NCBI RefSeq assembly: GCF_037392515.1
Contig: NC_090281.1
Span: 45,546,645 to 45,610,644 of the forward strand
Length of the DNA stretch: 64,000 nt
Origin: Haliotis asinina
Lineage: Eukaryota; Mollusca; Gastropoda; Lepetellida; Haliotidae
Direction: 5' to 3'
Shown: positions 6,370 through 63,104 of the stretch, in pieces
Layout: the number at the start of each line of letters is the position of its first letter
Position numbering within the stretch: the first letter of the stretch is position 1
The notes under the pieces: generated by a model
What the model was told of the DNA's origin: nothing
Database searches by the model: none
What the model saw: only the letters and a program-made list of their open reading frames with translations
Translations under genes and position numbers: made by a program

Positions 6370-6392
6370 TCCACATGCTGCTCCAGGAGAAT

Positions 6393-8179: not shown

Positions 8180-8424
8180 AGTAACGATAACGAATAGGTT
8201 CATGTTTCATATCACTGGTACTTACTACATAGATAATAAATATTAAAAGCATATGCTTTTTGGTCAGGAAAACGCTGTAACCTGAAACACAAGCTGTAAC
8301 TTGCTCATGACGTCATTGTCAACAAGAATATATTGTTATGTTGTCTTCAAAAGATAGTTTGGACAACTTGCCTTCCTGGTAGTCTGGCGGCTTTGTGGTC
8401 GTTGTCCTGCCGCCAGAAGAGACC

Positions 8425-8525
8425 TTGATCCACTTCTGTCCACGGAATATCTTCTTGGCAGTCGTCCTGCCTCTGGGGGACTTCAGGGTCCATTTCCGCC
8501 CCCAGGTAGATGGCATCCCTGCTCA
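8425..8525 (-). other. Exon-like module, copy 3
   Basis: Same core as copies 1 and 2, with small changes (IV to IY in the acidic frame). Upstream AGCAG could serve as an acceptor. Function unknown. Confidence 0.3.
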
Positions 8526-8803
8526 TAACAGTACATAGAATATAGTTTACATCGCTGGCACTTACTGTGTGCATAAATGCAACTTATATGCCTACACGTA
8601 AAATCTCAAACATGAAACTCAAGTTGTAATTTTGCAGTAGACGTCATGATAAACAAGGATGCATTGCATGTTATGGTTTATTCAAAAGATTGTTTGAAAG
8701 GAACAGTTGCATGCGTAAGCAACGGTTCTACTTAAAAAAGGCAAAGAACACTTTACATAATTTATGCTTCTCACACAGATTATGACTGCATGAGTGTCCT
8801 TTT

Positions 8804-8950
8804 ACACCGCTTTCAGCAATATACTAGCTATATCACGGTGGGAAACAACAAATAGATGCTTCACACATCATTCAGATATGGAAAATCGAAATAGGTTGTT
8901 TGGAGCGTCATGAGCGAACGCTTAAACCATTCGGTTATTCGACGATCCCC
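8804..8950 (-). mobile_element. tRNA-derived SINE (type 1), duplicated copy
   Basis: Counterpart of the 6760-6897 copy in unit 2, with the same GAGCGAACGCTTAAACCA segment. Confidence 0.6.
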
Positions 8951-10481
8951 TTACATTTAAATGCAAAGCAAATATATCGGGACGTGAAAAACAAAATTTA
9001 ATTTAAGTTTTAAACTGAAATAGTTAATGCTTTACCAGCAGGTGGCCAGTACACTGACTTTCAAAGTGACCATCCGGGACTTGCTTTGTCTCGAACTACC
9101 TATTGAAGGACGGAATGGTGGTTTAACACTAAGTTATACTATCTATAGATAGCATCGTACAGGGCATGCACGAAGGGGGCCCTATCTACACTAACCCCTA
9201 AATCTACCAGTCACGTGCAGTCAGCATTGGGTCTACTTGGGGTGCTGAAAAGACTGGGGCCACAGAGTGTGCCATCCCTAAACTAGCTGGGTTGCTGTAA
9301 CAACCATCCTGACTGTACAGTCAGGCCCTAGCACCGAACCTACTCCATGTACGCTCGGCAGGGGGCTACGCGGAGAGCAGACGCACAATGGAGCCACCAT
9401 GAGACAAAAGCTCATCCCATCGGACCCTCGGAAAGTCAGTGTACTAAAGTCCAGGTGGAAGGGTTTAGAGTGACACAACACGAAATCCAGAGTGTGCCAG
9501 GGTTCCTGCGTCTGAAAGAAATGAGTCATGCATAAGCATCAGTAATCACATTTCTCTCGGATGTAGATTGGATTAAGAACAGCGAGTAAGTGTGGGTTTC
9601 TGCCACTTTTGGCAATATTCCAACGACGGGCCTGATATGTGGGAGTGAGACATAATATTTAAGTGAAGACTCGAACAATGGTACTGAACATGACGTGCCA
9701 ACACTTGAACAACTAGGCTACACTACCACTCCGTTTACATGCACAAACCAGTATCAACCTTTCCCATCTATACCTAAATGGCTGTGTACTATGAGAGGAT
9801 GAGTGTGCACTGTGTATTAAACAAATATCCATGAAGATGCATATTTTCTTCCAAATAGATAAGGAAACACCTACCTGTCTGGTCCTCTGTCGCCCTTCCG
9901 AAGAATCCTTGAAGTCGTCCTACCTCTACAGGATTTCAAGACTTTCTGTCCCCACGACGAATATTTCACATCACTATAGGTGGGTGCTCAAACTCCAAGC
10001 GGGCTGCAGTCGCTCGCTTCGGGTCGCTCGCTTACGCAACCTAATCCCAGTCGCCGAACCCGAAACAAAGGATTAGAGCTGTTGGAAGCACCTCAATCAC
10101 AAGTGTTTGCACAGAGGCATGTTTTCTTATTTAGCGTGAGCCAAGTAAGACCTGGTAATATTCATTATTGAAACAAAACGAAACAAAATTTTCTTTCATT
10201 GATTCCAGATTTATTTATGTAAGACAATATAGCTAAAACATAATCAACGGCTAATACAATACAGGTATAACCCATTGTAAATTTAAAATTACAAGTTAAA
10301 CCCAAAGTGACATAGGTGTATGGAACATTCAATGTAAATGAATTAAAACAAACTGTCGTCCGTGGGTGGGAATGTTGTAAATTGTGATTGATGTGCTTAT
10401 CACTGCTCATCGCTTTCGTGACTCACTCGTGTTATTCTGCGATTACAGTCCGTTTGCCGTGAAAGCGTACCGATGAATGTC

Positions 10482-10931: not shown

Positions 10932-12544
10932 CAAAAAAAATCATCTCAACATCGTACACCACAATACATGTAAATGAGACACCACCATCCCATTCACCAA
11001 TGCATGGCGCACCTCACCAGCATACACGAGGACACCTCAACATCCACCAATGCATGAAGCACCACCAACGGCATACGTGAGTACACCACAACATCCACCA
11101 ATGCATGGGGCACCACCAACGGCATACATGAGTACACCACAACATCCACCAATGCATGGGGCATCACCACCGGCATACATGAGCACCCCACAACATCCAC
11201 CAATTATTTGGGCACCACCACAGGCATACATAACACATCAAAATCACATCTACCAATGCACGGGGCACCACCACCGGCATATATGAGACACAACCATCAC
11301 ATCCACCAATCCATGGCACACCGCCACCAGCATACATGAGGACACCACAACATCCACCAATGCATGGTGCACCACCACAGGCATACATGAGTAAACCAGA
11401 ACATCCACCAATGCATGGTGCACCACCACAGGCATACACAAGTAAACCAGAACATCCACCAATGCATGGTGCACCACCACCAGCATAAATGAGCACACCA
11501 CAACATCCACCAATCCATGGCACACCACTACCGGCATATATGAGACACCACCATCACATACATCAATGCATGGCAAACCGCCACCGGCATACATGAGTAC
11601 ACCACAACATACACCAATGTATGGGGCACTGCCATCGGCTTACATGAGTACACTACAACATCGACCAATGCAGGGCACACCGCCAACGGTATACATGAGT
11701 ACACCACAACATCCACCAATGCATGGCGCACCGCCACTGGCATACATGAGCACACCACAACATCCACCAATGCATGGCGCACAGCCACCGGCATACATGA
11801 GTACACGACAACATCCACCAATGCATGGGACACCACCACAGGCATACATGAGACCTAACCATCACATCCGCCAATGGACACCGACAGGGGGCACAACCAC
11901 CGGTATACATGAGTACACCACAACATCCACCAATGCCTGGCACACCACCACCGACATACATGAGTACACCACAACATCCACCAATGCATGGCGCATCGCC
12001 ACCTGCATACATGAGTACACCACAACATCCACCAATGCATGGGGCACCCCAACCCTCATACAAGAAACATAACCATCACATCCACCAATGCATGGCACAC
12101 CACCACTGACATATTTGAGTACAGCACAACATCCACCAATGCATGGTGCACTCCTACCGGCATACATGAGTGCACCAAAACTTCCAACAATGCATGGGGC
12201 ACCGCCAACGGCATACATGAGTACATAACAACATCCACCAATGCATGGTGCACCACCACCGGCATAGATGAGCACACCACAACATCCACCAATGCATGGC
12301 GCACCAAAAGCGGCATACATGAGTACACCACAACATCCACCAATGCATGGGGAACTGCCACCGGCATTCATGAGTACACCAGAACATCCACCAATGATGG
12401 TGGTGGTGCCACCGGCATACATGAGGCACCACCATCACATCCACCAATGCATGGGGCACCACTACCAACATATATGAGTAGATAACAACATCCACCAATG
12501 CATGGTGCACTGCCACCGGCCTACTGAGGCACCAGCATCACAGC

Positions 12545-13740
12545 CACCTGCATACATGAGTACACCACAAGATCCACCAATGCATGACGCACCACCACAG
12601 GTATATATGAGCCACCACCATCACATCCACCAATGCATGGGCCACCACCACCCTCATACATATACATGAGTACACCATAACATCCACCAATGCAAGGCGT
12701 ACCGCCACCGACATACATGAGTACACCACAACATCCACCAATGCATGGCGCACCGCCACCGGCATACATGAGTGCACCACAACATCCACCAATGCATCGT
12801 GTACCGCCACCGACATACATGAGCACACCACAACATCCACCAGTGCATGGCGCACCACTATCGGCATACATGAGCCACCACCATTTCATCCACCAATGCA
12901 TTGGGCACCGCCACTGGCATACATGAGCACACCACAACATCCACCAAGGCACTGTGTACAGCCACAGGCATACATGAGGACACCACAACATCCACCAATG
13001 CATGGGGCACCGTCACCGGCATACATGAGCACACCACAACATCCACCAATGCATGGCGCACCGCCACCAGCTTACATCAGACACCACCATCACATACACT
13101 AATTCATGGGGCACCACAACCCTCATACATGAGACGGCACCATCATATCGACCAATACATGGTGCACCGCCACTGGTATACATGAGCACACCACAACAAC
13201 CACCAATGCATGGGGCACCACCACATGCATACATGAGACATAACCATCACATCCACCAATGGATGGCACACCCCTACTGGCATGGGGCACCACCACCGGT
13301 ATACATGAGTACATCACAACATTCACCAATGCATGGTGCACCACCACCGGCATACATGAGTACACAACAACATCCACCAATGTATGGCACACCACCACCG
13401 ACATACATGAGTACACCACCATCACATCCACCAATGCATGGCGCACCGCCAGCCTCATACAAGAGAAATAACCATCACATCCACAAATGAATGACACACC
13501 ACCACTGACATACATGACTACACCACAACATCCACCAATGCATGGTGCACCATCACAGGCATACATGAGACATAACCATCAGATCCACCAATGTATGGCG
13601 CACTGCCACCGGTATACATGAGATCACCACAACATCCACGAATCCATGGGGCACCACCACTGGCATACATGAGCACACCACAACATCCACCAATGCATGG
13701 GGCACCACCACCAACATACAGGGGTACATAACAACATCCA
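12545..13740. repeat. Higher-order block, copy 1
   Basis: This irregular run of 51-bp variants recurs at 14275-15625. The offset is 1730 bp at the left end and 1885 bp after about 12900, because copy 2 has an extra run of about 155 bp near 14620-14775. From 12900 to 13600 the copies are almost identical. Confidence 0.85.
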
Positions 13741-14274
13741 ACAATGCATGGTGCACCACCAGAGGCATACATGAGACATAACCATCACATTCACCAATGC
13801 ATGGCACACCGCTACTGACATGCATGAGTACACTACAACATCCACCAATGCATGGGACACCACCACCCTCATACATGAGACACCACCATCACATCCACCA
13901 ATGCATGGTGCACCGCCAAAGGCATACATGAGTACACCACAACATCCACCAATGCATCGTGCAACGCCACCGGCATACATGAGTACACCACAACATCCAC
14001 CAATGGATGGCGCACCACTATCGGTATACATGAGCCACCACCATCTCATCCACCAATGCATGGCGCATCGCCACTGGCATACATGAGCACACCACAGCAT
14101 CCACCAATGCTTGGCGCACCGCTACCGGCATGCATGAGCACACAACATCCACCAATGCATGGGGCACTGCTACCGGCATACATGAGTACACCGCAACATC
14201 CACCAATGCATGACGCACCACCAAGTGCATACATGAGCCACCACCATCACATCCACCATTGCATGGCACAACGC

Positions 14275-15625
14275 CACCGGCATACATGAGTACACCACAA
14301 CATCCACCAATGCATGACGCACCACCACAGGTATATATGAGCCACGACCATCACATCCACCAATGCATGGGCCACCACCACCCTCATACATATACATGAG
14401 TACACCATCACATCCACCAATGCAAGGCGTACCGCCACCGACATACATGAGTACACCACAACATCCACCAATGCATGGCGCACCGCCACCGGCATACATG
14501 AGTGCACCACAACATCCACCAATGCATCGTGTACCGCCACCGACATACATGAGTACACCTCAACATCCACCAATGCATGGTGCACCACTATCGGCATACA
14601 TGAGCCACCACCATTTCATCCACCGATGCATTGCGCACCGCCACCGGCATACATTAGTACATAACAACATGTACCGATGCATCGTGTACCGCCACCGGCA
14701 TACATGAGCAAACCACAACATCCACCAGTGCATGGCGCACCACTATCGGTATACATGAGCCACCACCATTTCATCCACCAATGCATTGGGCACCGCCACT
14801 GGCATACATGAGCACACCACAACATCCACCAAGGCACTGTGTACAGCCACAGGCATACATGAGGACACCACAACATCCACCAATGCATGGGGCACCGTCA
14901 CCGGCATACATGAGCACACCACAACATCCACCAATGCATGGCGCACCGCCACCAGCTTACATCAGACACCACCATCACATACACTAATTCATGGGGCACC
15001 ACAGCCCTCATACATGAGACGGCACCATCATATCGACCAATACATGGTGCACCGCCACTGGTATACATGAGCACACCACAACAACCACCAATGCATGGGG
15101 CACCACCACATGCATACATGAGACATAACCATCACATCCACCAATGGATGGCACACCCCTACTGGCATGGGGCACCACCACCGGTATACATGAGTACATC
15201 ACAACATTCACCAATGCATGGTGCACCACCACCGGCATACATGAGTACACAACAACATCCACCAATGTATGGCACACCACCACCGACATACATGAGTACA
15301 CCACCATCACATCCACCAATGCATGGCGCACCGCCAGCCTCATACAAGAGAAATAACCATCACATCCACAAATGAATGACACACCACCACTGACATACAT
15401 GACTACACCACAACATCCACCAATGCATGGTGCACCATCACAGGCATACATGAGACATAACCATCAGATCCACCAATGTATGGCGCACTGCCACCGGTAT
15501 ACATGAGTTCACCACAACATCCACAAATCCATGGGGCACCACCACTGGCATACATGAGCACACCACAACATCCACCAATGCATGGGGCACCACCACCAAC
15601 ATACAGGGGTACATAACAACATCGA
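14275..15625. repeat. Higher-order block, copy 2
   Basis: Second copy of the block at 12545-13740, with three additional units. A further shared run (14100-14195 and 15830-15925, offset 1730) shows that the duplication was longer and later rearranged. Confidence 0.85.
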
Positions 15626-16240
15626 AAAATGCATGGTGCACCACCACCCTCATACATGAGACACCACCATCACATCCACCAATGCATGGTGCACCGCCAA
15701 AGGCATACATGAGTACACCACAACATCCACCAATGCATCGTGTAACGCCACCGGCATACATGAGTACAACACAACATCCACCAATGCATCGTGCAACGCC
15801 ACCGGCAAACATGAGCACACCACAACATCCACCAATGCTTGGCGCACCGCTACCGGCATGCATGAGCACACAACATCCACCAATGCATGGGGCACTGCTA
15901 CCGGCATACATGAGTACACCGCAACATCCACCAATGCATAGCGCACCACCACCGGCATACATGAGTACACCACAACATCCACTAATGCATGGCACACCGC
16001 CACCGACATACAGGAGCACACGACAACATCCACCAGTGCATGGCGCACCGTCACCAGCATACATATCGAATGTGTGGATTTAAGCCGCTTTTAGCAATGT
16101 TCCAGCAATGTCCCGTTTTATGCCCTCAGGCAAGGGCCTCAGACCTTTTATTTATGGATCTCCGGCTGAAACCTCTATGCGTACACAATCTATCCATCTA
16201 ATACTGAACTGTTAGAGAAGGTAATAGTATCCTATTCCAG

Positions 16241-18251: not shown

Positions 18252-21200
18252 CTACTGCTCTGCAACTTTGACAGTTTTGTCCTTCCGGAGGTCAACAAAG
18301 CTTTTCCCGGCTACGTCGGTGAAGTTGTTGTTGCAGTCTAGGATGGCGCTGTTTGGCACCTGAAACACCCCCAACACCAACATCATAACAACGTGTACGT
18401 GGAAATTTATTCAACACCACCATTACTGAGAAGTAAAGCTGCTTTAAACGTTACAGCGTTACGGTCCATATCACGGTGTGACTGTTTCATGTGGGAGGAA
18501 AACTCGAAGTCATGCAGACCTTAGACGTTTATTACTGTTGTAAAACCAATGATCATCGACATGGGTGTGACATTGAGAAGAAGGGACCATGGTCAAGACC
18601 TGAGAAAAATACTGCGAATGGCTTATAGAAAATACTGTGGGCATTCGTGGTCGTATCGTGTTCAGTTTAGCTTCATTCGGGTACATATGTTCATGCCTTG
18701 TTTAGTTTAGCACAATGCGGAATTTCATTTTCATACCTTGCTCAGTTTAGTACACTGCGAGTGCTCGTGTTAATACCTTGTATAGTTGAGTATACTGCGG
18801 ATATTCATGTTCATAGACCGGGTTGTTAGTAGCTTTGTTGAAAGCACAGATGAGGACCCAGCGTCTCATGGAGCTGTTGTTGGTACCGCTGCTGTGTAAG
18901 AGGTTGCAGTGGAAGAAGAGGGCGTCACCTGGAGGACGCAAATACCTTTGAATACAGGTACGAAATATATGTTTATTAGTTTCTGGACTCACAAATTGTG
19001 TTTACAGAGATGAGTCCTTTCTAAAATAATATTTCACTGTATATGTAAATGATTTCACAGAATAGCATAAATTAGCAGCGAAAATTAGTTGCGAACATAA
19101 TCCCGTGATATAGTCACGTCCAAAAGAACCTTGACTCTAATTACTTGTGCTCTAAATGTGTGGTTTGAGATGTGGCAAAATATATGTCCCGAGTTCTTCT
19201 GTGTTCGTAGAGACTTGGAACCTATAGCAGAAACCCAGGATACCTAAAGCATGGTTCACGGGCCAGGTTCTTGTAAAATCGGCTTTCTGGCAGGTACACG
19301 AACCGCACGAGCAATGTTCGGTATAAAGTGTCTCCATATAACCAGCTGTCATCAGTTTCACTGGAAAACCACAGCAAGAGTGCCGAGACTGATCGCGGAA
19401 AAGCGTGAACGAGCCATATGATCCTAATTAGGGTTTCTCGTGATCACGTAGCAACAAGCTTCGGTTGTTCTACCACGGCTACATCCAACCTCATCCAGCG
19501 GTTCCAACAGACGAGAGACCGACCTAGAGCAGGAGGGTCCCGAATCGCAACGACACAGGGAGACCGAACATCCGTACGATCCACCCCGTGACCGCTTCCT
19601 GACGGCAACCTCAACGGCAACAACGGCATTGGGTCGTCGCCAGACGTCTGTGCCTCTTTACAGGAAAATGGGTGAACAAATGGCTCCTTGTTGTATTCAG
19701 GCGTCGGAGCCTTTCTGTGTAGGGGATGTGGGGAGGCATTATTGGAGATCGGATCATTAGACTTGTTGTGTTTGAGGAGACGCTGTACTTCGTTGTGGGG
19801 CAGGACCCAAGTCCTAGAAGCTCTCAGGAGTTAAACTGCCAAACACGACACATTGAATATTCCATGCATCAGTTGTGCTTGTCAATAGATTTATCTTCAT
19901 ATTACAAAAGGTTTTAGTGACACCATCACCTGGTTCCATCTCTATGTATTTGTGTCGACACATCCTCCTAACTTCAGCGACCCTCTGCAAGTCAGCCCCT
20001 GTCTGTCCACCCACCATCAGATGTTCAATACGCCCACACCGGTGGGACCCCTCCAGGATCTGACAGGGGTGGAAACAAAACCTTCAATAAGTGATAAGCC
20101 AAATCACTCACTGGACAATTAGTCACTGTGACAAATACCTCCATATATATTTCAAGGACAACATGACGCCATCACAGGACAGGTACGAAATCAAATGCCA
20201 AAAAACGACATTCTGAATATAAACGAAAGATCAAAATACGCCATGACACTTTAAAGAATGCTTTGTTATCTCAGGGGTTCATCATTTTTTCCAAAAGAAA
20301 CACATGCCACAGAGCACAGGGACTTTAAGAAAGTGACTTTTCCTGACTAATTTTTCACTTGCCCTGATTTTATGACGTAACCATGTTGATGTAACTATGA
20401 AAGAATAACTCAGCGTGGTATTTGATGTCAATGTTTTCTGGATTCTATACCGATAAGTTACAAATAGCAAAGAATGTGAACTCTACTGAAACCATTAGTG
20501 GAAATTATCTAGGAGCCCACGGACAAGTAAGATACCATTATTCGTTTGCCCGAAATGAAAACGGACTTGTCCCGGGCATGGGGCGATGGGATTTTTGAAA
20601 GCCGAATTGTCATACTCCTCCGTTTCAGAAGAACATGAAAGAGACTAAATATTCGTTCGAGACGAAAACACATCAAACACGAGGCCATGGTTGAGATTTT
20701 ACGAAAGCTTCCAATGTGTCAGTTGTCAATTGTGACAGTGTGGTGATTGTGTGTTTGTTTGTTGGTTGTTGGTTGGTTTGTCTCCCAGCCGCATCCCAGC
20801 TGTAAATATTTGAGTCCGGATTAGACTCTCCAGTGATTGAAATCTCCCTACACTTCACATTCAACCACAGAATATTACATGCATGTACATATATACACAT
20901 ATCATACTTCAAGGCAGCCGTTTTCTTTCACAGAACGGTCAATAGGAAGGTACACACTGAGCATGTCAGGAAACAGGCAGCAGTTCTTGTACCAATAGCT
21001 GAAATTATATTAAACGACTAATATCAATATCATAGGTTTTATACCATTTTGTGAAAAGACGTCATTGAGCATATATGAGGCCAATTTTACCATATTCGAC
21101 CTAAGGAAATATGGAAATTTGACTCCAGTCATTGCAACCTTTGGGGAATCGAATCCACGCCTTCGTCTGATGAGCAAACACTTAAACCACCGGATACCTT

Positions 21201-24200
21201 ACTTCCGCTATAATATATGGCCCTAGACAACTGTCGATAGCATGGCCCATGTAAGGCATTTACTATCTAAATGCATCAAACAGGTCAAACATCAAGCATG
21301 ACTAAATTATGTTAGAGCGGTTTCACCGTATTATCTGACATCGTGGTAACGTAATGAAACGTTAAAATAAATCCTGTGGTTCTTATTGTAGCCTTGCACT
21401 TTTGTGATCATATCTGATGTCAGTGTTATAGGAGCAGAAACAGGAAGACAACGTCATCCATATACCCTCGCCACAGTGCTCTGTTCCTGTATTGACAACG
21501 CTTCATTCTTTCTACAAACAGCGATACATGAGATTAAATAAAATCAGTTCCCACTTATTTTAACGTGCACTAAACCAAGAAATGCATGACAAGGGCCATA
21601 AGTCCGATACAAATTGTAACTCGGTTTCTAATTTCGAACTCCATCAAGGCATTCTTGCCCTGAAAACATATACCAAAAAGGGTTTCCCTATCTATAATGG
21701 TTTTTCAGAAAAACATGTCCCCATCATCTCGGCCAGCGGGCGGAATTCAAACCTGTCCCCCTTCCACTTCATGGCGGGGGATAATAACAACAGTGCAGAA
21801 AATATGATTCGAACACACAATTATAGATCCGTAAAAACAAGAGCTGAAACTCTGCTCTTCACTTTACGAACTAGTCAGAATTCGCAAAGCGTTCGTAGCG
21901 CTACCACATTCGTAAGCCTAGGATGAACTACAGGGTTACGATCGGTCGTAACCGTACGAACGATTGACGATCGGGGCACAGATCAACAAGTAGTGTAAAT
22001 TGATGTCATGATCGGATCAATATTTCCTTGAACTGAACACAAGCGGAACAATATTTGGAAATTATATATAAGTGGTCTCTAAGTGTTTACCCATAGTCCT
22101 GATGCCAGAGAAACCTGCCGCCAGTCCTGGCTTCCTTCATCATCAGCTTGCAGTGATAAACGTAACTTTCTCCCCCAAGCAACTGATGAAGGAGAAAAGA
22201 GTATAAGTACAAACCTGAGTCAGTTTTAAATGTAGATCAGGCGATAGGTCGTTAATTGTTAATAGAGCATGAAAAAATATTGTACGAAACATTGAAGAGC
22301 TGAGTTTTGAATTTTGTACCGGCAACGTGTACTGACGTTGTTAAAGCATCGCCTCATGGCAGGAGGCACACGGTATGGTAGCCATAGTCTCAAGGCCATA
22401 AAGATGGAATATTGCTGAGCGCGGCGTAAAATTAAACTCACTCACTCGGATCTCAAGACGAGTGTGTTACCTTTTCACTGAAACCTGCCACTTTGTCACA
22501 GCGAGTCAACATGCCTGTGACGTCACTTCCTGGATGGCGCCATATGGCTAGTTTGCTAGACCTGTCGTCACCGTCTGAAACCTGGAAGCATCCAGTTACC
22601 AAAGGGTCAACAGCTGCATTACGCTGGATATCGTTTAATGTTAGGGGCGGCATAGTGTAAACATAACGAACAGCAAATGAAACGCAACTCTTGTTTATCA
22701 GGTTTATAAATGGAAGACTTAAACATGAACGCTTGGTTTCATGCGATTTCATTTTTATCGAAACTTGCATTTTTTTAGCTGTTTAGTATATAATGATAGG
22801 TTTGGGTTAAGAAAGGGGCAGAATTATGATTACACCCGGGGACGGAGACATTTCATTCAATCGATCCCCGATCGGTCAGGTCGATCATTCAAACACTCTG
22901 AATGTTGGGAGTCCATTATATTCACAAACATTTCGGATGAATTACATTTGAATTTGAAACTGTTTTGTCAATTGAGTATTTTTTAAATATTGTTGCTGCC
23001 AGAATTCCTACCCCTTGAGAATGTTCCATATATTCCTCCGATTCCTCCAGGGACTTCTTCACATGTGACGTCTCCTCCGGGCTCAACAACCCCCTGAAGT
23101 CAAGTTTCAGTTATTTCTTAACATAAAACGCCTTTTATAGACATGTAATGACACAATAATGTTGCACACCACTGCCGTGGGGCGATAAAGATGTTAGCAT
23201 CCCGGTCTCCCGAAAGGCGAATAGCAACGTTTCGATCATGTACGGAAGGGGGCGAGAGGAGACGAATGTAACGAATGATGGCATTCCGTAATATCGAGTT
23301 GGTTACGAATGAAATAATGATAAACATCTTCCGTAAAACTACCGAGAGTTAACGAAAATTGTTGTTATCACATGACCTGACGTCGTAGTAGGGAGTTGAC
23401 TTGGAGTCGGTAGATATCTCAGTATTGAGTTCAATGGCTTACAGCGTACACCTTGGTATCAAGAAATAACCACACCTATAAAAATCGTGCATCTTTCTAA
23501 GTGTGTCGAAAAACCACGAAACAAACGACCCAAAGTTCCTACCTGATGAGAATGTAGCCATTTTATCGTAGGCCTTCTTCACGTCTTCGGTGATGTCAAA
23601 CGCTTCGTGGTACTGGAATTCTAACTACATATGTATGCGGTAAATGTATTCTGTCATGCAATTGTTACAATATCCGATTTTTGGTGTCGAATATTTATTG
23701 AAATGGTTTGCTGTGTATAATGTTTTCAATCTGTACAATAATTGCCTGATCTCACTACAAACTGAGAAAAAGTCTGTTTCAAGTTAGCTTTCATGAAACG
23801 GTGATGGAATCCATTCTCAGTCTTTGCTCATCAAATAAGCAGCGTTCACCTCATTTTTCCGCGTCATTTGGATCTAGCCGAGAGTAAACTTATAACGCAT
23901 TACCTTTAAGCGGTGTACTAACATAGGCTACCCACTGTGACTTTGGTCATGCTTGTGTCTTAGCTATTTGATAAAATCTTTGCAAATAAGCATCAGTGTT
24001 ATCTTTCTGATCTTCGAAAGGGGGCGATTTGGCTTACACCTGGGAGAGATGGGGTACCGTTCTCTTGAGTCTCAATCAAACTCTTTTCCTTCTCGAATTT
24101 GTCCAATTCTATACTTTCAGTCCTTTCTAACTGGATGTTTTCTTTCTCTAAGTCCAAGTCCAACTTTCTCTCTCGTCGTCTTCTATCCTTGCCTTCTCGA

Positions 24201-31353: not shown

Positions 31354-34300
31354 TCATCCTCTCGAAGCCTCGATCGTCTTGTTGTCAGCAGGATCCAGGA
31401 ATTCTTTGCCGCTCATGTCGGAGACGTTGGTGCACTCACGAATGGCGTTGTCGTTCACCTGTCAGAATGAGTGCGTGGGTGAATGAGTGAGTACTGTTTT
31501 ACGCCTCTACAACCAATATCTGGGACACCAGATATGGACTTCACACATTGTATCTATTTTGGGACTCGACCCGAGTCTTCAGCGTGACGAGCGAACGCTT
31601 TAACCACTGGGCTACCCCATCTCTATCTCCAGCTGTCGAAAGAGACATGACATCGTAGTACGTGCCTTACATTTACTGATTACCATAATTACTTAGACAC
31701 ACAGTTTTAGTTTGACAAACGCTATTGACATAATTCAATGAAATGGAAGATAGCGTAATGGAGAACAATCTGTCTCTATTAAAAAAATATCTTACGATAT
31801 CTAGCTTGGTATAACGAGGGTAGTGATGCTCTATGACGGGGTCATTGGTTGCTTTGTTGTAGCAGGCGATGACCACCCAGCGTCTCTTGTCGCTCACGTT
31901 GGCGGTATTGGTGTGCAGAATGTTGCAGTGAAAAAAGAGAGTATCACCTGTAAATGAGTTGTAGTAGATGAAAGCAGAAAGTGTTGTTTATGATGTAGAG
32001 GTCACTGTAAAAAGAAGGTGTCACCTTGTTAATTTACTGATGCCGGTGACACTTTTGCGTTTGTAGTCAGTAAAATGCGTTACCTTGCAACCTTGACGAT
32101 TCCTCTGAAATTAATACATTTGTAGTCTGTGAAAAGATCACCTTGTAACGTTGCTGATGGCAGTGAAATTCATGTGCTTGTAGTTAGTGATAAGCGTCTT
32201 CTTGTAACCTTGACGATGGCAGTGAAATTGATGCGTTTGAAGCATCATTTTCTGACAGTAGAAGCCATTATGTGACAATACCTGGATTCATCTCTATATA
32301 TCTGAGAGGAAGCCTCGACTTGATTTGTTCCACCCTGTCCATGTTCGCCCCCATCTGACCACCGACCCTGCCGTGTTCGATACGACCGCATTTGTGAGAA
32401 CCTTCCAAGATCTAATAATGAAAACGTATATTGGCTAACTAATCATCCTCCTAGAGCAAGGTAGCTGACATGGATCTACTGTTTGACAAGTATTAGATGA
32501 GCCATGACCTGACAAATGACCCAATTTGCATGTATGGGAACGCCCTCCAGAACATTCCATCTGAAGAAAGAGGGAAACAGGTTGTCGTCTAAATATTGAA
32601 AAGTTCAATTTCCTCGTGCGAATCGTGCCGTGATGGTGTTTTGCTGAACTAAATCGCTCAACGAGACACGTTTAACAGTAGTGGTATTGCTTTCACGCCA
32701 CCGACAGCATGTATTGCGCGTGCTTAATCGCCAATCTACCTGTAGCAACCAAGTGTCTTCGTCCAGATTACTTCGTCCAGATCCCACCTGCTTGTCACAA
32801 ACGCATTCACTGCGCTGGCCCATCTAATACTTGTCTAGCGATAATTGAGGTCACAGTAACGAAATCCACATCCAGTTGAAAAATAAGCCACTGGAACGTT
32901 TCTTTCTCCGCAAGAGTTTGGGACGCATGCGTACCGTCAGTTGGGCACATATTTTCCATGTATTTGAATGTGTTGAAATGCTACAATAATTGAGTGCACT
33001 TAAGGAAGCAGGGCCTTCCTTAGTGCCATAATAATCTTGGTTACTGATCAGGTGTCCTTTCACGAGGCAACCTTAAAGGTCACATGCAACCAAAAAATCA
33101 AACATAACTAAAACAGAATTATCACTCATCCATGACATATAATATACATTGCTCTTGTAAAAATTCACATAGACAAAATTATAAGCGTACAATCGCGATT
33201 CAAAAGCGCAGTATTTTGTACTTCGGCTTACTTCCCCCGAAACGAAGCCCTCGGGAGATCGAACCCAGTCATAGCGGGTGGATGTGCACTCAAGTGTAAC
33301 GACGACTTCCGATTGGCTGGTTCATTTGCTGATACGCTGAGGACTCATTGTGTGTACAGAAAGACAATCTGTTTGATGGGCATTTTAGAAGTATGGCGAG
33401 TCACAAGAAACAAAAAGATTCTTTATGGATAACAACTTCATTTATTGTACTTGATGCGTCGTTTCAGTATGGATTCATATACCGTTGTCAAACAAAATCA
33501 TATAACTAGAAGAAATTGTTATCCATAAAGAATGTATATAGAGATGTTGGGTTTTTTAAATACGTGTTCTCTGAATTTGCGTTCGATCCAATCAAAAATC
33601 ACCTCTGTAGAGATGGTGAACTACTGCGTGCCTGGAAATTGTCATTCTTCAAAGTACAAAGCAGGACTTGAAATTGACAAAAGTTTGCACCAGTTTCCGA
33701 CAGATCCAGTCATCCGAGAAAAATGGATGGAATTTGTTTGCAGTTCACACACATAAAAAACTGTCACGTGTACAAGTATCACATCTGCCTAATTGCATAA
33801 TGTAGCAGAGACAGGACTCATAAATCAATTTATTTTGTTTATGGCGTATAGTCTGAAAGGTGCTAAGTTCAAATTGCATGTGGTCAATGATTGAAGCTGT
33901 GCATATTGTCTTTAGCAGACAGGCAGGCAGGCAGACATATTGGTGTCAATAAACCAGACATTGAGCGTTATTTGTGACAGAGGCTGCTTACCACAATCAA
34001 CAAATTTTTTTACATAACGAGTAGATTATTTACTTGTTCGTGTACACAACCAAGATTTGAATACTTTGAAAATTTAGTGAATCGTTTGAACTCCTATTTC
34101 GCGGGCTTTATTTCATCGCGTTTTTTTTCAACTTTATAGGTTGAATTGGCATTTGTGATGATTTGTTTCGGTAAGTGCATACCGAAAGGTCTTAGAATCT
34201 GCAAAGTTGTATTTTACGTTGCATGTGACCTTTAACTAACCGTAACTTTAACTCCCACTCTTTAACATTACACTAAGGTTACCTTGGTGACGTACGATCA

Positions 34301-37300
34301 CCTTAGTTCTTTGTGAGAGGATAAGGTCCCAACTGCTCGAAACACACCTATGTTTTCACTCAAATCTCAAACTGAGTTTGACAATTTGAAACAGCTGCAT
34401 TTTTAACTCAACTCATGTTTTTAAATAAAAAAGTTCAAACAACTAACGAAATCTCTTCACCAAACTCAGATTGTCTTCTCAATTTGAGTTTGATACCGAT
34501 TTCCGTACATTTTGGAAAATGCATATTCGTGCGTTTTCTCAGATTTGAGCAAAAACGTGAACTTAAGTCAAAACTCAGACTTAAGTTTGTTTGGAGAAAT
34601 CAGGATCAGATCGGCTTCAGTGAGAGCCGCATTTATAGTGGAGGCAAAGGAAAATGATGTGAAAGGTGTAATCGGAATGAACAATATATGAGAATATACG
34701 CAAGGGACATAATTCATAATGGCTAATTCGGGTGGCTTCATGGATAAGCATACCCGTTCGATGTTTGTTTGTACTTCAGTTATTTCCTATGCCTCAAGAA
34801 AATGTTAATTCACTTGCGATTTAGCGATAACTAAACCACTTATGTAGCGAACGTTTTGTTACAATTATCTTTACGAGGTTTCCCAGTGGGAATATGTCTG
34901 GGTAATCCGTCTTAGAGTATTACGTGATCACAATCGGAAATCGTGATGTCAGACTCGAACATTTATCGGCAATGACTGTGACACTGCTTCAGTGTTGCCA
35001 GCGATGAGGTAAACAAGAAATGACAACAATGTTAATGTTTACCTGTAAACATCCATTAGCTTTTTCACACTTGTCGATGGCGACAAACACACTTATCATG
35101 TCAGGATACAGGTTCCCGTTGTTGTACCAATACCTGTAACAGTGTGTGATACAGTAATAATGTGTGATAGACGTGTACCATGCATGGTACACATGTACCG
35201 TACAGTATCATATTATGTATCCAAATTGCCCGTTCAAAATTATTAGCTGACATCTACATACAGGTTTTGATTTACCACACAGTGCTGGTAATATGTCCTG
35301 AAACATCAAAGGCATAACTTATTCACACGAGTCTTATTTTTCTTACGGCCTCATCATCTGATAGATGGCATGCGTCAGGGTTTGAAGCCAACTGCTGATC
35401 GCAACCATTCAACAATTATTCAAGTAATGATCTGCGTTATATTTGGTCTTCGGCAACAAATGCTCATTCTTGAAGCCACTTACGGTATGCGTGTAATTGT
35501 ATTCCAAATCTATGTTCTTGAGGTCATACACTCGATGTTCTGATCTGGACGCAAGACAAACAAGCAAACAAACGAACCCGTAATCCTGATGCCATACAAA
35601 TCGCCCGCCAGTCCTGGGTTCCTTCATCATCAGCTTAGTGTAGTAGTGATAGACTTCTCCCCCAAGAAGCTGTAAATCACAACACTGTAAATCACAACAC
35701 TGTAAATCACAACACTGTAAATCACAAGTCTGTCTCATTGTCTTACTATCTAACGTCAAATGATGGCGTTAGTTGCCTCGCCTGGCACTCTGCATTGACA
35801 AAATGAAATAAGGAATACTTCTGTGTCATAGGTTACCGTTGTAATCTACGTATAGTTGAAACCTACGTCTGTTTCAATATCTGCGGGCATTATTTTAATC
35901 ACTGACAACAGTCACTGACAGGGCATTTTGAAGATCCACGACTTATACAATTTGTTTGTCGATAAGGACTGACATCATATCAGCCAACGGAGCAGCCATT
36001 ACAAATAGGAAGACCAGAAATCGATGTTTATCCACTGGAGGGTGGGGGCTGGGATGATTCGGGTCAAAGTTGAGATGCTACTTAACCACAGACTACTCCA
36101 CCAGCCTATGGGTCAAACACATTTTTAGTCAAATATATGTCCTACTTGAGGATATACTAAAGTCGTTGTTCTTCCATAAAGTTTGTCTTTATCTCATTCA
36201 CTGATTTCTAAACATGCCGCTCAGAGACAAGTTGCGTTTCTGTTGCTGTTCAGTATATATCTCTAATATTTATTATCCCTTTAAATTTCTCTCTCGAATT
36301 CTTTAAGTGCAGTGGTTTTGAAGTTGTGATTCAAACATAGCGGTTGGGATAGAATTTCGTTAATGTTATTTGTGTAGGAATAATATTGTTTGTGAAATAG
36401 GTTCCATGCTTTAAGCACATCATGCCAAAAAGGGTTTCAATCTCAATAAAAGTTTCAGAATTGGTCCAAAATTAAACATAACTTTGACAGATAGGTTGCA
36501 TGGATATTTCTTTCACATTTTAAACATGTAGACGAACAGTGGAACATTTCAAAGCGTCATTAAATTTATTCACTGTCTTCTCTCTTCATATTTATTTTTT
36601 ACACTCCTTTTCATCATTCCAAATGAGGGGCAGTGGGATAGTCTAGTGGTTAAAGGGTTCGCTCGTCAGGCCAATGTCACGCGTTCGATTCCCACACATG
36701 GGTACAATGTGCGAAGCCCATTTCTGGTGTCCCCTCCCACAGTATTGATGGAATATTTTTTAAAGCTGCTGATAACCCAATACACTCACTCATTCACATC
36801 CTAAATGACTTCACAGATTAATTTTTCAGGCGAGGGAATACATCCGGGTAGTGGGTTCAGCAAGGAGTTGAAAATATGACCTAGTTAGCAGGTTGCTAGG
36901 GATTTTATTACTGTTATTTTACCAATAAGTCTTAAATGTCGGTTTCTCCAAGATGCTAAGAATCTATAAGTCCCTGGTGTTTATTACCCATTAGGTCAGG
37001 TCATTGCATATCTTATCAATAGATTCAGCTTTTCGTCATATCTAGATTGCTTTGATTTACCTAAGTTGATTTTCAAACCTGAGATTTTATAAAATACATT
37101 AATTGTGTCAGTAACAAGATACAGCCCCCCTCCTCTTCCTCGGTTCCATCTAGACATATTTCTGTTATCATAAGCCTATCCAGCTAGAAGAGTCAACTGT
37201 ATTGAGGAAATACAAGGCTTTTATCAAGGGCAATATACGTAATAACTTCTTACTTCGGCGCAGGTTCCAGCTAGTCTTTGACTTCGGGACAGCATTCCTG

Positions 37301-40300
37301 TGACGTCATTTCCGGGTTGACACCAGAGAGACACGCGGGTTTTTCTCCCTTCACTGTCATCAGTCTGTAAGATAACCACATCGATTGTTATATTGTTTAC
37401 GAAGTCTTTCTTTAAAATCCATGGCATTGACTATTTGCAAATATACAAAATCAGTGTTACGCGCTGTATACATGGATAAATTTAAGAAATACTGGGGCGA
37501 TGGGGAAATGACAAAGTTGCAGGTTCATGTCCCAAAAATGGTTAACATTTGAAGATAGCCACTGGGGCCTCACTGACGATATGACTCAAATACATATCAA
37601 ACCTCAACTCCAGTTAAGATCGTGCTCATAGAGTATCATTATTTCAGATAATAGGTCAGTGTGCATTTAATTTAATTTACAATCAGTGTATTTTCTTAGC
37701 TCCCTGGGGAAGATTAAACATATCCTACAACCCAGCCTTCAAGGTATCCCTTGCCTTTATGTGTCAACAGCATTGATATGGCAATTGTCACTTAAAGGAA
37801 ATAAAACTGAAACACAAAAAAAAAAAACTCACAACGAAGGAATGTCGTTGGATTTCTTCGCTCCCTTCCAATGTTGATTTTACTTTCTCTAGTTCGTCCT
37901 TCTCCAACAGACCTCTGTAAAAACAGGACGGGACTACATGTGGCAACCATGTTCAGATATCATGGACCAGATTGTATGCCTGTAGGTCAACGACCATGAT
38001 CAGAAATATCTTGGACTGTCCAGCGGGACTACAAGCTTGATCAGAAATATCTTGGACTGTCCAACGGGACTACAAGCTTGATCAGAAATATCTTGGACTG
38101 TCCAACGGGACTACAAGCTTGATCAGAAATATCTTGGACTGTCCAGCGGGACTACAAGCTTGATCAGAAATATCTTGGACTGTCCAACGGGACTACAAGC
38201 TTGATCAGAAATATCTTGGACTGTCCAACGGGACTACAAGCTTGATCAGAAATATCTTGGACTGTCCAGCGGGACTACAAGCTTGATCAGAAATATCTTG
38301 GACTGTCCAGCGGGACTACAAGCTTGATCAGAAATATCTTGGACTGTCCAACGGGACTACAAGCTTGATCAGAAATATCTTGGACTGTCCAGCGGGACTA
38401 CAAGCTTGATCAGAAATATCTTGGACTGTCCAACGGGACTACAAGCTTGATCAGAAATATCTTGGACTGTCCAGCGGGACTACAAGCTTGATCAGAAATA
38501 TCTTGGACTGTCCAACGGGACTACAAGCTTGATCAGAAATATCTTGGACTGTCCAACGGGACTACAAGCTTGATCAGAAATATCTTGGACTGTCCAACGG
38601 GACTACAAGCTTGATCAGAAATATCTTGGACTGTCCAGCGGGACTACAAGCTTGATCAGAAATATCTTGGACTGTCCAACGGGACTACAAGCTTGATCAG
38701 AAATATCTTGGACTGTCCAACGGGACTACAAGCTTGATCAGAAATATCTTGGACTGTCCAACGGGACTACAAGCTTGATCAGAAATATCTTGGACTGTCC
38801 AACGGGACTACAAGCTTGATCAGAAATATCTTGGACTGTCCAGCGGGACTACAAGCTTGATCAGAAATATCTTGGACTGTCCAACGGGACTACAAGCTTG
38901 ATCAGAAATATCTTGGACTGTCCAACGGGACTACAAGCTTGATCAGAAATATCTTGGACTGTCCAACGGGACTACAAGCTTGATCAGAAATATCTTGGAC
39001 TGTCCAACGGGACTACAAGCTTGATCAGAAATATCTTGGACTGTCCAACGGGACTACAAGCTTGATCAGAAATATCTTGGACTGTCCAACGGGACTACAA
39101 GCTTGATCAGAAATATCTTGGACTGTCCAACGGGACTACAAGCTTGATCAGAAATATCTTGGACTGTCCAACGGGACTACAAGCTTGATCAGAAATATCT
39201 TGGACTGTCCAACGGGACTACAAGCTTGATCAGAAATATCTTGGACTGTCCAACGGGACTACAAGCTTGATCAGAAATATCTTGGACTGTCCAACGGGAC
39301 TACAAGCTTGATCAGAAATATCTTGGACTGTCCAACGGGACTACAAGCTTGATCAGAAATATCTTGGACTGTCCAACGGGACTACAAGCTTGATCAGAAA
39401 TATCTTGGACTGTCCAACGGGACTACAAGCTTGATCAGAAATATCTTGGACTGTCCAACGGGACTACAAGCTTGATCAGAAATATCTTGGACTGTCCAGC
39501 GGGACTACAAGCTTGATCAGAAATATCTTGGACTGTCCAGCGGGACTACAAGCTTGATCAGAAATATCTTGGACTGTCCAGCGGGACTACAAGCTTGATC
39601 AGAAATATCTTGGACTGTCCAACGGGACTACAAGCTTGATCAGAAATATCTTGGACTGTCCAACGGGACTACAAGCTTGATCAGAAATATCTTGGACTGT
39701 CCAACGGGACTACAAGCTTGATCAGAAATATCTTGGACTGTCCAACGGGACTACAAGCTTGATCAGAAATATCTTGGACTGTCCAACGGGACTACAAGCT
39801 TGATCAGAAATATCTTGGACTGTCCAACGGGACTACAAGCTTGATCAGAAATATCTTGGACTGTCCAACGGGACTACAAGCTTGATCAGAAATATCTTGG
39901 ACTGTCCAACGGGACTACAAGCTTGATCAGAAATATCTTGGACTGTCCAACGGGACTACAAGCTTGATCAGAAATATCGCAGACAAACACACAGGTATAC
40001 AACTTTGATAAGACGCATCGTGCACAACCATAACGGACTACAGACGTGATGAGAAACATATTTGACAGTCATACAGGAATACAACCTTCACAAGAAGCAT
40101 TGTGTACAAGCGTGCAGGTTCACAACCTTGATCAAAAACATCGTGTACAAGTGTGCAGGTTCACAACCTTGATCAAAAACATCGTGTACAAGCATGCAGG
40201 TCTACAAATTTAATCAGAAAGAAAACAGGCTTACATGCGTAAATCATGTTACGTCATAATATAATGAAAGAAGTTGCCGTCCATAAGGTACCTTGCCTTT

Positions 40301-41328
40301 CTACAATAACTTCTAAAAATGCCAATCAAACCTATCAACGTTACATTTGTAAAAGCATAACCAGGAATGTCTTTCATATGTCTAAGTCTCGTACTACAAA
40401 CAGTTGATTTTGGGAGTCTTGCAATGAAAATGGCATTTGAGCTTCGAAGACTTTTCATTCGAAGGGCGAAATCTGAAAAGGGTGGCAATCCGGTACATAT
40501 AAACTGTACAATGGTTCATTTGCTGGCATAGGTTCAGAAACATATGCTGGTGCCATGTAAAATTATTGTCACCTCGGAACTACACACAAATGTGTTTACT
40601 AACGACAAAAGGATAATTTCTCATTCGTTCATTCGTTGTATGCCAACGATGGGATCGCGAGACGTATGAAGCACTCAACCAGTCTATTCACGCGCTGCAT
40701 CTTGGGATTACTTTGTCTTTCATTCAAAATTACAACCTACCGAATAAGGACATAGCCTTTTTCCTTAAACGACTCCTTCATTTCTTCAGTTACCGTAAAT
40801 GGGGCGCTATAGTTGAACTCTGGAAGAAAACATGCTTTTAAACAGGTTAGCTTAAGAAAATGTAGGTATACATTACGATATATTGATAAACTTCCTTTAC
40901 ACAGAGTGTTTTCGTGTAATAATTTGCTGTTTACATTTGCGAAAAAAGATTATTGCTATTTTTATAGTTTCCTTTTTATGTTTTGAGATGGAAACGTGTA
41001 TCACTTACACATACAAATTCCATTCTCCGTGGATATAATGTCAAATAGTTGTTTAAATACTACATTTCAGTAATATCAATTTTTACAGGTTTACACAAAA
41101 GTGTATGATATTTGACATATGCAGGATTCTTTAGTGACTTAAGACAGCACAGATAGCAATGATCGAACACTGACTAGTTTCCCATCGATCTGGCTCCTTA
41201 GTTATTACCTGTTCCCAATCAACACTGATTGATGCTACTACTGACAGTACTAACAGTACGGGTTACAAGAACAACATTCTAAAGAAAATGTGACAGATTA
41301 TGGAAATATGATTACCTGATCTTGCCAT
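31354..41328 (-). CDS. PhyH-family Fe(II)/2-oxoglutarate dioxygenase, gene B
   Basis: Nine coding exons, minus strand: 41316-41328, 40741-40819, 37833-37914, 37254-37364, 35578-35669, 35043-35133, 32282-32411, 31796-31947, 31354-31458 (stop TGA). Total 855 bases, 284 residues, all borders AG/GT with matching phases. Starts [19 protein letters not shown]. Motifs: WHQDYGYWYNNG (iron H122, D124), [20 protein letters not shown] (iron H211), DKRRW (2-oxoglutarate Arg, about 222). This layout is like PhyH-domain proteins often labelled L-proline trans-4-hydroxylase-like in molluscs; the substrate is not determined. There is no signal peptide or membrane segment, so it is probably cytosolic. Intron 2 holds the 41-bp array, intron 6 the THAP element, intron 8 a SINE. 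The exon 5 donor GTTCGT is weak. Confidence 0.93.
31470..31620 (-). mobile_element. tRNA-derived SINE (type 1) in gene B intron 8
   Basis: Begins GTGAATGAGTGAGTACTG and ends ACCACTGGGCTACCCC, with GTGACGAGCGAACGCTTTAA inside. It starts about a dozen bases from the exon 9 acceptor, as the gene C copy at 45526-45638 does. Confidence 0.85.
31995..32250. repeat. Intronic minisatellite, about 59-60-bp unit, gene B intron 7
   Basis: Diverged repeats of TTGTAACCTTGACGATGGCAG and similar, matching the cleaner array in gene C intron 7 (46395-46760). On the minus strand units carry AAGGTGACACC-like sequence resembling the exon 8 start. Confidence 0.7.
32485..32836. mobile_element. MITE-like element, copy 2, with terminal inverted repeats
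   Basis: Left end GACAAGTATTAGATGAGCCA and right end TGGCCCATCTAATACTTGTC are inverted copies with one mismatch. The interior is shared with 28929-29202 plus an extra block. Non-coding. Lies in gene B intron 6, just 5' of exon 7. No convincing target duplication was seen. Confidence 0.8.
33418..33532. repeat. Inverted repeat inside the THAP element
   Basis: ATTCTTTATGGATAACAA at 33418-33435 is matched by TTGTTATCCATAAAGAAT at 33515-33532. A related segment lies at about 46780-46860 in gene C intron 7, so this may be a small nested element. Confidence 0.65.
33613..33756 (+). CDS. THAP domain fragment (transposon-derived)
   Basis: From ATG 33613 the product is [20 protein letters not shown]..., then [18 protein letters not shown], 47 residues to the stop. 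The CxxxC pair, the HxFP motif and the invariant Trp match the first half of the C2CH THAP zinc finger that binds transposon ends. The second C-x2-H pair is replaced by SSHT and a stop, so the finger is incomplete in this reading. An intron at this point is possible but no downstream match was seen. Confidence 0.72.
   Translation: MVNYCVPGNCHSSKYKAGLEIDKSLHQFPTDPVIREKWMEFVCSSHT
35670..35733 (-). repeat. Four tandem 15-bp copies of a splice acceptor, gene B exon 5
   Basis: CTGTAAATCACAACA is repeated at 15-bp steps directly 5' of exon 5. On the minus strand each copy ends GATTTACAG, so each is a possible 3' splice site. The step is five codons (C-C-D-L-Q), so use of an upstream copy would keep the frame. 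Gene C has two copies (49003-49033). Confidence 0.85.
36626..36793 (+). mobile_element. tRNA-derived SINE (type 1)
   Basis: GGGGCAGTGGGATAGTCTAG, TGGTTAAAGGGTTCGCTCG and the B box GCGTTCGATTCCC are well preserved; ends TACACTCACTCATTCAC. In gene B intron 4. Confidence 0.88.
36825..37130 (-). mobile_element. LINE reverse transcriptase C-terminal remnant
   Basis: One minus frame reads [17 protein letters not shown], then after stops [18 protein letters not shown], then [17 protein letters not shown]. The SGLKIN...K and GKITVIKSL...LPNP blocks are the thumb region of L1/Tx1-like reverse transcriptases. At least three in-frame stops. It lies in gene B intron 4 in the same orientation as the gene. 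Confidence 0.8.
37999..39979. repeat. Homogenised 41-bp minisatellite, 48 exact periods, gene B intron 2
   Basis: The TCAGAAATATC landmark occurs at 38000 and last at 39968, exactly 48 x 41 bases, with no indel seen. The unit contains AAGCTTGATCAG and CTTGGACTGTCCARCGGG. The only variable site I found is that R: G in units 1, 4, 7, 8, 10, 12, 16, 21 and 37-39, A elsewhere. The array starts about 85 bases past the 5' end of exon 3 and lies within intron 2. Confidence 0.95.
39980..40230. repeat. Diverged 41-bp units flanking the array
   Basis: CACAACCTTGATCAAAAACA and TCGTGTACAAGTGTGCAGG recur with the same 41-bp step (40112 to 40153) and align base for base with the homogenised unit, at many mismatches. 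They look like the old edge of the array. Confidence 0.8.
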
Positions 41329-45417: not shown

Positions 45418-53426
<8,009 letters not shown>

Positions 53427-60800: not shown

Positions 60801-63104
60801 TCGCCCATAAAACTTGAGTCAAGTTTGCCCCGTATGATTATATTTTGAGAGTCTTGTACAAAATTGTTATGCAGGAATCGCATTTCATTAAAATCTGATC
60901 AGACTCAGTGAAATTGTTGGTTAGATTTAAATTAGAACCACATAAGTTGATGCTTGCAGCATCAGTCACCCGATTGCTGTGCAGGATTGTAATGTTTTCA
61001 GGCCTCAGTCATTGAGCTGAAAAAATAATGTTGTGTTAAAGATACATGATAAAGTCAAACAAAACAAACCTAAACAAAACAGTCCATTAGCGCTGAAAAC
61101 ACTCTACGCTCTACTGTAGTGATATATTTGGATCTGTGCATACTGTTTAAACATGTTAATTTAGACTGACAGACGGACAACTCTGAAACTGTCCAAAATT
61201 GTCACTATGTCAGTATTTTATTCAGAATGTAATTATAACCTGTGAAGATCCAGGCATGAATTGGTCACCAGCTTGTCGTAAGAGGTGGCAAACAGGATTG
61301 GATGATCATTCTTGCTTTCCAGTTATATATCAGTGGTCTGTAAATAACAGAGTGAATGTGATGATGTATGTCAACCAAGTCAACAAGCCTGACCACCTGA
61401 TCCCATTTAGTTGCCTCTTATTACAAGCATGGGTTACTAAGGCATACAAGACTGTACCTGGGGTATAAATCTGTGTTTATTTCAGTAGATTGTACCTGGG
61501 GTATAAATCTGTGTTAATTTCAATAGTGGTAAACTTCAAAAATACTAAATGCTAACATGCAAGCTTTTGAAATGTTCACTGGAACCAACTTATGGTCTAA
61601 GGCAGATAACTCTAGTCACTGAAGGTGACGATTGCACCGTTTGATGTTTAAATATACCCTGGCATCCATAAATTGAAGAGTAAGGTATCAGTGTCATTGA
61701 ATCTGTATAAGGCAAATGTAATGTTTTGCCAAGTTTGTAGGGAAATGACTTTCTCGAGGTGTAAAGATGGACCAAGAGTCTTCTTAATACACTGAGGGGC
61801 AGTGGGGTAGCGTAGAGGTTAAAGCATTCATTAGTCACTCTGAAGACCTAGGTTCAGTTAGCAACATGGGTACAATGTGTGAAGCCAAATTCTGGTAGTC
61901 CCTGCTGTGATGTTGCTGGAATATTGCTAAATGTGATGTAAAACAAAGTGTCAGTGAACACAAATACTTTTGTGAGTGACCCTAGGCATAATTGATACAA
62001 ATTCATTCCTATACCTGACGTTGTTGCCTTAGGCAAGTGACTTACCTTTAGGTCACCTGGTCACCATCATCACTGAACAGGGAATCAGTTGTTAATAACA
62101 GTAGTGGACTTGCCAAAATTATTATCCCTCTGTCTCTAAAGCATTCTTAGAGTCCACAAATTTGCAGCCTTCCCAGACATTAGTGACAGACATGCAGCTT
62201 CATTTGTTCATTTGGTACAAAAATTAAGTAAGAAGAGGGCAATAACTTTATGTTTTTCATTCCAGTATCCCCCTACAACAGATTCAAGAGCACATTCTAC
62301 CTTGTATTTGAGTTCTGTGAACACGACCTAGCTGGTTTGTTGAGCAATGCCAATGTCAAGTTCACCCTAGGTGAGGTCAAGAAGGTCATGCAGCAGCTCC
62401 TCAATGGCCTCTACTTCATCCACAGCAACAAGATCCTCCACCGCGACATGAAGGCAGCCAATATCCTCATCACTAAGACCGGCATCTTGAAGCTGACCGA
62501 TTTCGGACTTGCCAGAGCCTTCAGCGCCAACAAGCCAGGCATGCCAAACCGATACACCAATCGGGTGGTGACATTGTGGTACCGACCGCCAGAACTCCTG
62601 CTGGGGGAGAGGAACTATGGGCCAGCCATTGATATGTGGGGGGCGGGATGCATCATGGCGGAGATGTGGACCAGGAGTCCGATCATGCAGGGAAACACCG
62701 AGCAGCATCAACTGTTGCTGATTACACAGCTATGTGGCTCGATCTCACCCGAAGTTTGGCCCGGTGTCGAGAAGCTGGAACTGTATGATAAGCTGGAGCT
62801 ACCAAAAGCTCAGAAACGGAAGGTGAAGGAGAGATTGAAGTCTTATGTGAAGGATCAGTATGCCCTTGACCTTTTGGATAAACTTTTGACCCTTGACCCC
62901 TCTAAGAGGATTGACAGTGATACATCTCTGAATCATGATTTCTTCTGGATGGACCCGATGCCAGCAGATCTGATGCCGATGTTGTCGCGGCATACAACGT
63001 CAATGTTTGAGTATCTGGCGCCACCGAGACGTAGGGGTCCAATTCCACAGCAGATGCCGAATAAACCAGTGACTCAGACTCAACACTTTGAGAGGATATT
63101 CTGA
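57815..63104 (+). CDS. CDK9: Cyclin-dependent kinase 9 (P-TEFb catalytic subunit)
   Basis: Coding exons 57815-57921, 58975-59056, 60000-60090 and 62266-63104 (stop TGA), all AG/GT; 1119 bases, 372 residues. The nuclear kinase pairs with cyclin T and phosphorylates the RNA polymerase II tail and pausing factors. Seen: glycine loop GQGTFG (31-36), catalytic Lys in LVAMKKV (53), PITAIRE helix (65-71), HRDMKAAN (Asp154), DFG (172-174), T-loop NRYTNRVVTLWYRPPELLL (Thr191, matching human Thr186), C-terminal FEYLAPPRR...FERIF. A second ATG at 57833 (MSKYEDLVFPYC) aligns better with the human N-terminus and would give 366 residues; both ATGs have C at -3. Exon 2 ends at a GTGCGT donor. About 75% of the protein is in the last exon. 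Introns carry SINEs. Confidence 0.97.
59109..59338 (+). mobile_element. SINE type 2
   Basis: GAAGATCCAAG start, TTCAGTAACCCATGCTTG, GGTCAGGCTCACTGACTTGG and a GAGTGCGGTGTAAAAC tail. In CDK9 intron 2. Confidence 0.88.
59702..59921 (+). mobile_element. SINE type 2
   Basis: CCTTCAGTAACCCATGCTTG through GCCACGTAAAATTAAACTCA. In CDK9 intron 2, same orientation as the copy 590 bp upstream. Confidence 0.88.
60091..61190. other. CDK9 intron 3, first part
   Basis: AT-rich intron sequence without recognisable genes or repeats. Confidence 0.5.
61200..61445. mobile_element. Two SINE type 2 pieces, head to head
   Basis: A plus-oriented 5' piece (GAAGATCCAGGCATGAATTG, CTTGTCGTAAGAGG) meets a minus-oriented piece (GTCAACCAAGTCAACAAGCC, AAGCATGGGTTACTAAGG). 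In CDK9 intron 3. Confidence 0.65.
61796..61944 (+). mobile_element. tRNA-derived SINE (type 1)
   Basis: GGGGCAGTGGGGTAGCGTAG and AGGTTAAAGCATTCATTAG start it, and GGAATATTGCTAAATGTG ends it. In CDK9 intron 3. Confidence 0.88.

Follow-up and report, generated by a model that had tools for sequence, protein, structure and literature searches.

A uniform 41-bp minisatellite, probably re-amplified recently, in an intron of a PhyH-domain gene of Haliotis asinina

A PhyH-domain gene of Haliotis asinina carries in one of its introns a tandem array of 41-bp units that are identical but for a single two-state site. The array is very likely a neutral, single-locus intronic minisatellite, in which an old array has decayed and the inner units of this one gene copy have been re-amplified recently. 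The window analysed here is a stretch of 64,000 nucleotides (contig NC_090281.1, positions 45,546,645 to 45,610,644), and all coordinates are positions within it unless stated otherwise. The analysis followed up an earlier note that had drawn attention to the array.

Results

The array is centred on a core of nearly identical units.

Positions 37997 to 39978, no strand assigned: homogeneous core of 1,982 bp (48 units of 41 bp and a further 14 bp)

The landmark TCAGAAATATC occurs exactly 49 times from 38000 to 39968, with all 48 steps measuring 41 bp, and TRF run on the window returned 37997-39978 with a period of 41, 48.3 copies, 99% matches, and 0% indels; the two results agree and bear out the 48 exact, indel-free steps described earlier. 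Going outward, the core consensus is first broken at 37996 on the left and at 39979 on the right. The sole variable site is unit column 27, which reads A in 37 and G in 11 of the 48 whole units, as had been claimed, and no difference is found at the other 1,920 positions (48 x 40). The G units are numbers 1, 4, 7, 8, 10, 12, 16, 21, 37, 38, and 39, in eight runs interspersed with A units, and this recount matches the earlier list exactly. Both ends of the core carry an identical 14 bp, as would be expected if units 41 bp apart had mispaired. Head-to-tail units of 41 bp in 48.3 copies fall within the range of about 10-100 bp that defines a minisatellite (VNTR), and the 1,982-bp core falls within the range of about 0.5-30 kb at a locus. 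In its two interspersed unit types the array, known from one allele, also resembles minisatellites of the two-state MVR type.

The palindromes AAGCTT (within CAAGCTTG) and TGATCA are both present in the unit, as previously noted, and a longer dyad of 13 bp, TTGGACTGTCCAA, had been overlooked. When the bases of the unit are shuffled singly 20,000 times, 1.5% of the shuffles contain a dyad at least as long, and by inspection the outer pair of TTGGACTGTCCAA is lost in G units. Expansion driven by hairpins was considered and rejected, as the fold energies of the array are unremarkable and near those of shuffles (z -0.4 to -1.7) and nothing beyond the 13-bp dyad speaks in its favour. A coding tandem repeat was likewise set aside, as each of the six frames is interrupted by stops in three successive units and the array has no stop-to-stop frame of 120 aa. 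Rfam gave no match at gathering score anywhere in the window, and an RNA-family reading was dropped; viral contigs also gave no match, which has little bearing on the array.

The core lies within a gene on the minus strand.

Positions 31793 to 40823, minus strand: PhyH-domain gene B, seven exon matches (Pfam PF05721, E 3.7e-24)
Positions 37915 to 40740, minus strand: host intron of gene B, GTAGGT...TTTTTACAG, 2,826 bp, splice sites by inspection

The PF05721 (PhyH) match was obtained with the seven exon peptides of gene B joined, and the exons lie on the minus strand at 40823-40740, 37913-37836, 37367-37251, 35669-35577, 35123-35040, 32402-32280, and 31948-31793. The core makes up 70% of the host intron and is separated from its 3' end (acceptor) by a gap of 82 bp. 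Gene B is one of three PhyH-domain genes arranged in tandem on the minus strand (A at 18783-23621, B, and C at 46193-52718); A and C both have exons related to those of B, and A is the more distant of the two. Over seven aligned exon stretches (729 bp), B and C show 87 differences and 88% identity, and 19 of 80 fourfold sites differ, giving a Jukes-Cantor distance of 0.29. The introns of B and C also have in common a 59-bp repeat (32061-32229 and 46523-46735), which is probably an array predating their split. Elsewhere in the window, a protein-kinase frame is found at 62232-63104 (PF00069, E 3.1e-48), which we take to be CDK9-like.

It is highly improbable that the array influences how gene B is spliced or expressed, for example via motifs of the unit. 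The array lies 82 bp from the acceptor, and each unit is directly seen to contain, in transcript sense, AG dinucleotides and a CTGAT motif, which we presume to resemble the branch-site consensus. Motifs this short are nevertheless expected by chance, fold energies are as unremarkable as noted above, and gene C, if functional, manages without a long array. No effect of the array on gene B is indicated.

Related but decayed units were found at both edges of the core.

Positions 39965 to 40210, no strand assigned: six decayed units in phase with the 41-bp period, each identical to the core consensus at 22-31 of 41 positions
Positions 37928 to 37967, no strand assigned: left trace of a decayed unit, beside the 3' splice site, with 6 of 1000 shuffles as good

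The right-hand units show, in order, 28, 25, 31, 22, 25, and 27 identities of 41, and the leading 14 bp of the first are common with the core. The right edge is thus marked by an abrupt drop from identical units to 54-76% identity per unit. On the left, CGGGACTACATG matches at 37929-37940, its single occurrence in the window outside the core, with 0.54 expected per window. Strongly diverged units had been said to flank the core on one side; the six on the right answer to this description, while the weaker trace on the left speaks against a restriction to one side.

A relative of these units is present in the neighbouring paralogue.

Positions 51980 to 52638, minus strand: matching intron of gene C, 659 bp, decayed repeat relative with its best unit at 52163-52197

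The introns measure 2,826 bp in B and 659 bp in C, and the core supplies 1,982 of the 2,167 bp by which the intron of B is longer. When the right-hand decayed units of B were compared with the intron of C, the local score was 256, whereas 500 shuffles averaged 149, reached 221 at most, and were in no case as good. A tile in the C intron also ranked first (249 vs 224 for the second) among 124 tiles of the window, a comparison that left out two regions. The unit at 52163-52197 was matched by nhmmer with a model made from the units of B at E 0.005, which is weak in absolute terms, and a search for the unit in the matching intron of gene A gave no match. The shuffles and the tile ranking uphold the claim that the matching intron of C holds a decayed relative. 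This similarity between the flank in B and the intron in C suggests that the old array most likely predates the B/C split; the ancestral array is probably older than that split, at a modest statistical weight. The uniform core, the decayed flanks, and the decayed relative in C together agree with the earlier proposal that the expansion followed the split.

The same observations bear on the possibility that an old array has been held uniform by ongoing gene conversion, without recent growth in copy number. A uniform core with interspersed A and G units is what such conversion could produce, but C has no comparable long array and the right edge falls abruptly from identical units to 54-76% identity per unit. 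We regard this explanation as decidedly unlikely.

The absence of differences outside column 27 limits the age of the core. Under neutral, equal-rate assumptions, the usual 3/n rule gives a bound of at most 0.0016 changes per site for a star history and about 0.006 changes per site for a branching (Yule) history. The divergence of B and C amounts to about 0.14 per lineage (half of 0.29), by which measure the core has no more than about 1-4% of the age of the B/C split. Very recent amplification or gene conversion had been invoked for this uniformity; recent amplification is supported, although a single allele does not directly separate it from conversion or an assembly effect, nor conversion from unequal exchange.

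The G units had also been described as clustered, which did not hold up, as neither the number of runs (p 0.25) nor the longest A run (p 0.10) is significant in 200,000 shuffles of the A/G order. A weak bias of G units to the left end was seen (p 0.03, two related measures, uncorrected). In the six right-hand decayed units, column 27 is split evenly between A and G, three units each, and both A and G are present in 9 of 41 flank columns. Growth by duplication only, without gene conversion, was simulated under 24 arbitrary settings of 600 runs each (14,400 in total), and a run qualified, as a small part of them did, if it finished with a single variant present in 6-42 copies. At least seven interspersed clusters arose in none of 66 qualifying runs with single-unit steps, in 59 of 95 with blocks of up to 5 units, and in 78 of 96 with blocks of up to 12. 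These simulated cluster counts favour duplication in blocks, through misaligned exchange or through repair, over single-unit slippage, and under this model multi-unit duplication would be preferred to single-unit duplication for the growth of the array. It is also conceivable, if unlikely, that the core arose in a single burst instead of many gradual exchanges, for example by copying from a circular or rolling template of a mixed A/G block, and is so young that a short ancestral allele of the intron still segregates alongside it.

The unit was found at this locus only. The 26-mer TGATCAGAAATATCTTGGACTGTCCA from the unit has 48 matches in the 1,143,192,487-base assembly, all in the array, and no further matches were found with up to 3 mismatches (best candidates scored in both cases). 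A dispersed satellite is accordingly not supported, with 48 matches at one locus among the best candidates whether 0 or up to 3 mismatches were allowed. A fragment of a dispersed repeat does adjoin the array.

Positions 40251 to 40331, no strand assigned: dispersed repeat fragment of about 80 bp, adjoining the decayed units

This position could be taken to mean that the array is the internal tandem-repeat part of a transposable element, to which we give next to no credence, as the unit is found at one locus. It was present in none of six other copies of the fragment, and the unit model run on the six 2-kb stretches around them gave one chance-level match (E 6.7).

To place the array in its genome, 20 stretches of 10 kb were taken at round positions (200 kb without N, a small sample). 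TRF returned about 25 arrays with a period of 10-120 that span at least 100 bp (rows merged by start), and two of these, a 61-bp array of 11 copies and a 51-bp array of 62.1, combine at least 95% matches with five copies or more. The rarity implied by the earlier note is weakened by these two arrays in 200 kb, while neither is as uniform as the present one, which is the most uniform of four arrays compared unit by unit. The 51-bp array (stretch L018, positions 2627-5792 of that stretch) resembles it in copy number and match level (62.1 copies, 95% matches). Cut without gaps, it yields 62 units of 11 types, the commonest occurring 34 times, which are more types than in the window array, and three of its columns have a minor share of at least 10%, compared with one here. 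It also has 45 variable columns and a mean difference of 0.12 per site vs 0.0086 in the window array, where the 45 columns and the 0.12 may be overestimates caused by units cut off register. The array is thus ordinary in kind, and its uniformity lies at the extreme for the Haliotis asinina genome.

Other repeats were seen in the sample and in the window. One sampled stretch (L015, positions 220-9558) contains a subarray with a 53-bp unit in 7.8 copies, which recurs seven times at a spacing of exactly 1,487 bp and looks like a nested satellite, and in another (L016, positions 1-9993) a 101-bp satellite of 98.6 copies and 87% matches fills the 10 kb. The window itself contains at 10991-16064 a 5-kb array of far more diverged 51-bp units (72-80% matches for the 51-bp rows). 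As 51 bp correspond to 17 codons, HPPMHG- and AYM-type motifs recur 12-20 and 10-24 times; they are found in each of the three plus frames, every one of which has 33-53 stops, and the array looks non-coding or decayed. A stretch of nearly 1 kb within it has a second copy at an offset of 1,885 bp (about 12800-13700 and 14685-15585); the two are about 99% identical and represent a recent block duplication. The window also holds a perfect 157-bp tandem duplication at 5264-5573 (2.0 copies, 100%) and a direct duplication of 1.4 kb at 90% identity (6383-7733 and 8413-9793).

Tandem arrays are generally error-prone in assemblies, and the unit number or uniformity could in principle be wrong through collapse, expansion, or consensus polishing. 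We consider such an artefact very unlikely, because the assembly is contiguous (159 contigs, the eleven with listed lengths measuring 53-106 Mb each), the A/G differences are kept here and heterogeneous arrays are kept elsewhere in the genome, and no indel occurs across these 2 kb.

Discussion

Literature listings on mollusc intron and Haliotis minisatellites, on Haliotis satellite DNA and tandem repeats, on array homogenisation, and on MVR, searched by topic and not by sequence, showed no report of the present array. A 27-bp minisatellite in intron 3 of the TSSK1-like gene of Haliotis discus hannai is described, in which the repeat number varies among individuals (PMC6905558). The likeness lies in an intronic tandem array of short units in a gastropod gene; gene and unit are different, and polymorphism was shown there, whereas one assembly is considered here. 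Two human loci offer further comparisons. At D7S21, studied by MVR-PCR, two similar unit types are interspersed along the array (PMC2363947), although many alleles were typed and instability was measured there, while the window array is one allele, intronic, and from another animal. MSY1 of the human Y has short units of fixed length (25 bp) with base-substitution variants (PMC2599865), but there the variants are grouped in blocks and a hairpin is predicted for the unit, whereas those of the window array are interspersed and its folding is unremarkable.

Under the favoured reading of a recently re-amplified minisatellite, an array with a unit of about 41 bp would have been present in the ancestral intron before the B/C split and would have decayed both in C and along the margins of the array in B, as the similarities between them suggest. 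One or a few inner units of B may then have been re-amplified to 48 copies through misaligned exchange or repair in blocks of several units. It is possible that the A/G difference in column 27 arose early and was copied along with the blocks, leaving A and G units interspersed, and that the time since has been too short for further mutations in the core. The number of units would be expected to differ among individuals.

Otherwise one among many minisatellites of the genome and of little import beyond its locus, the array would, if polymorphic, provide in its A/G order a handy two-state barcode of array growth. In that case, the decayed intron of the neighbouring paralogue would serve as an out-group for this growth.
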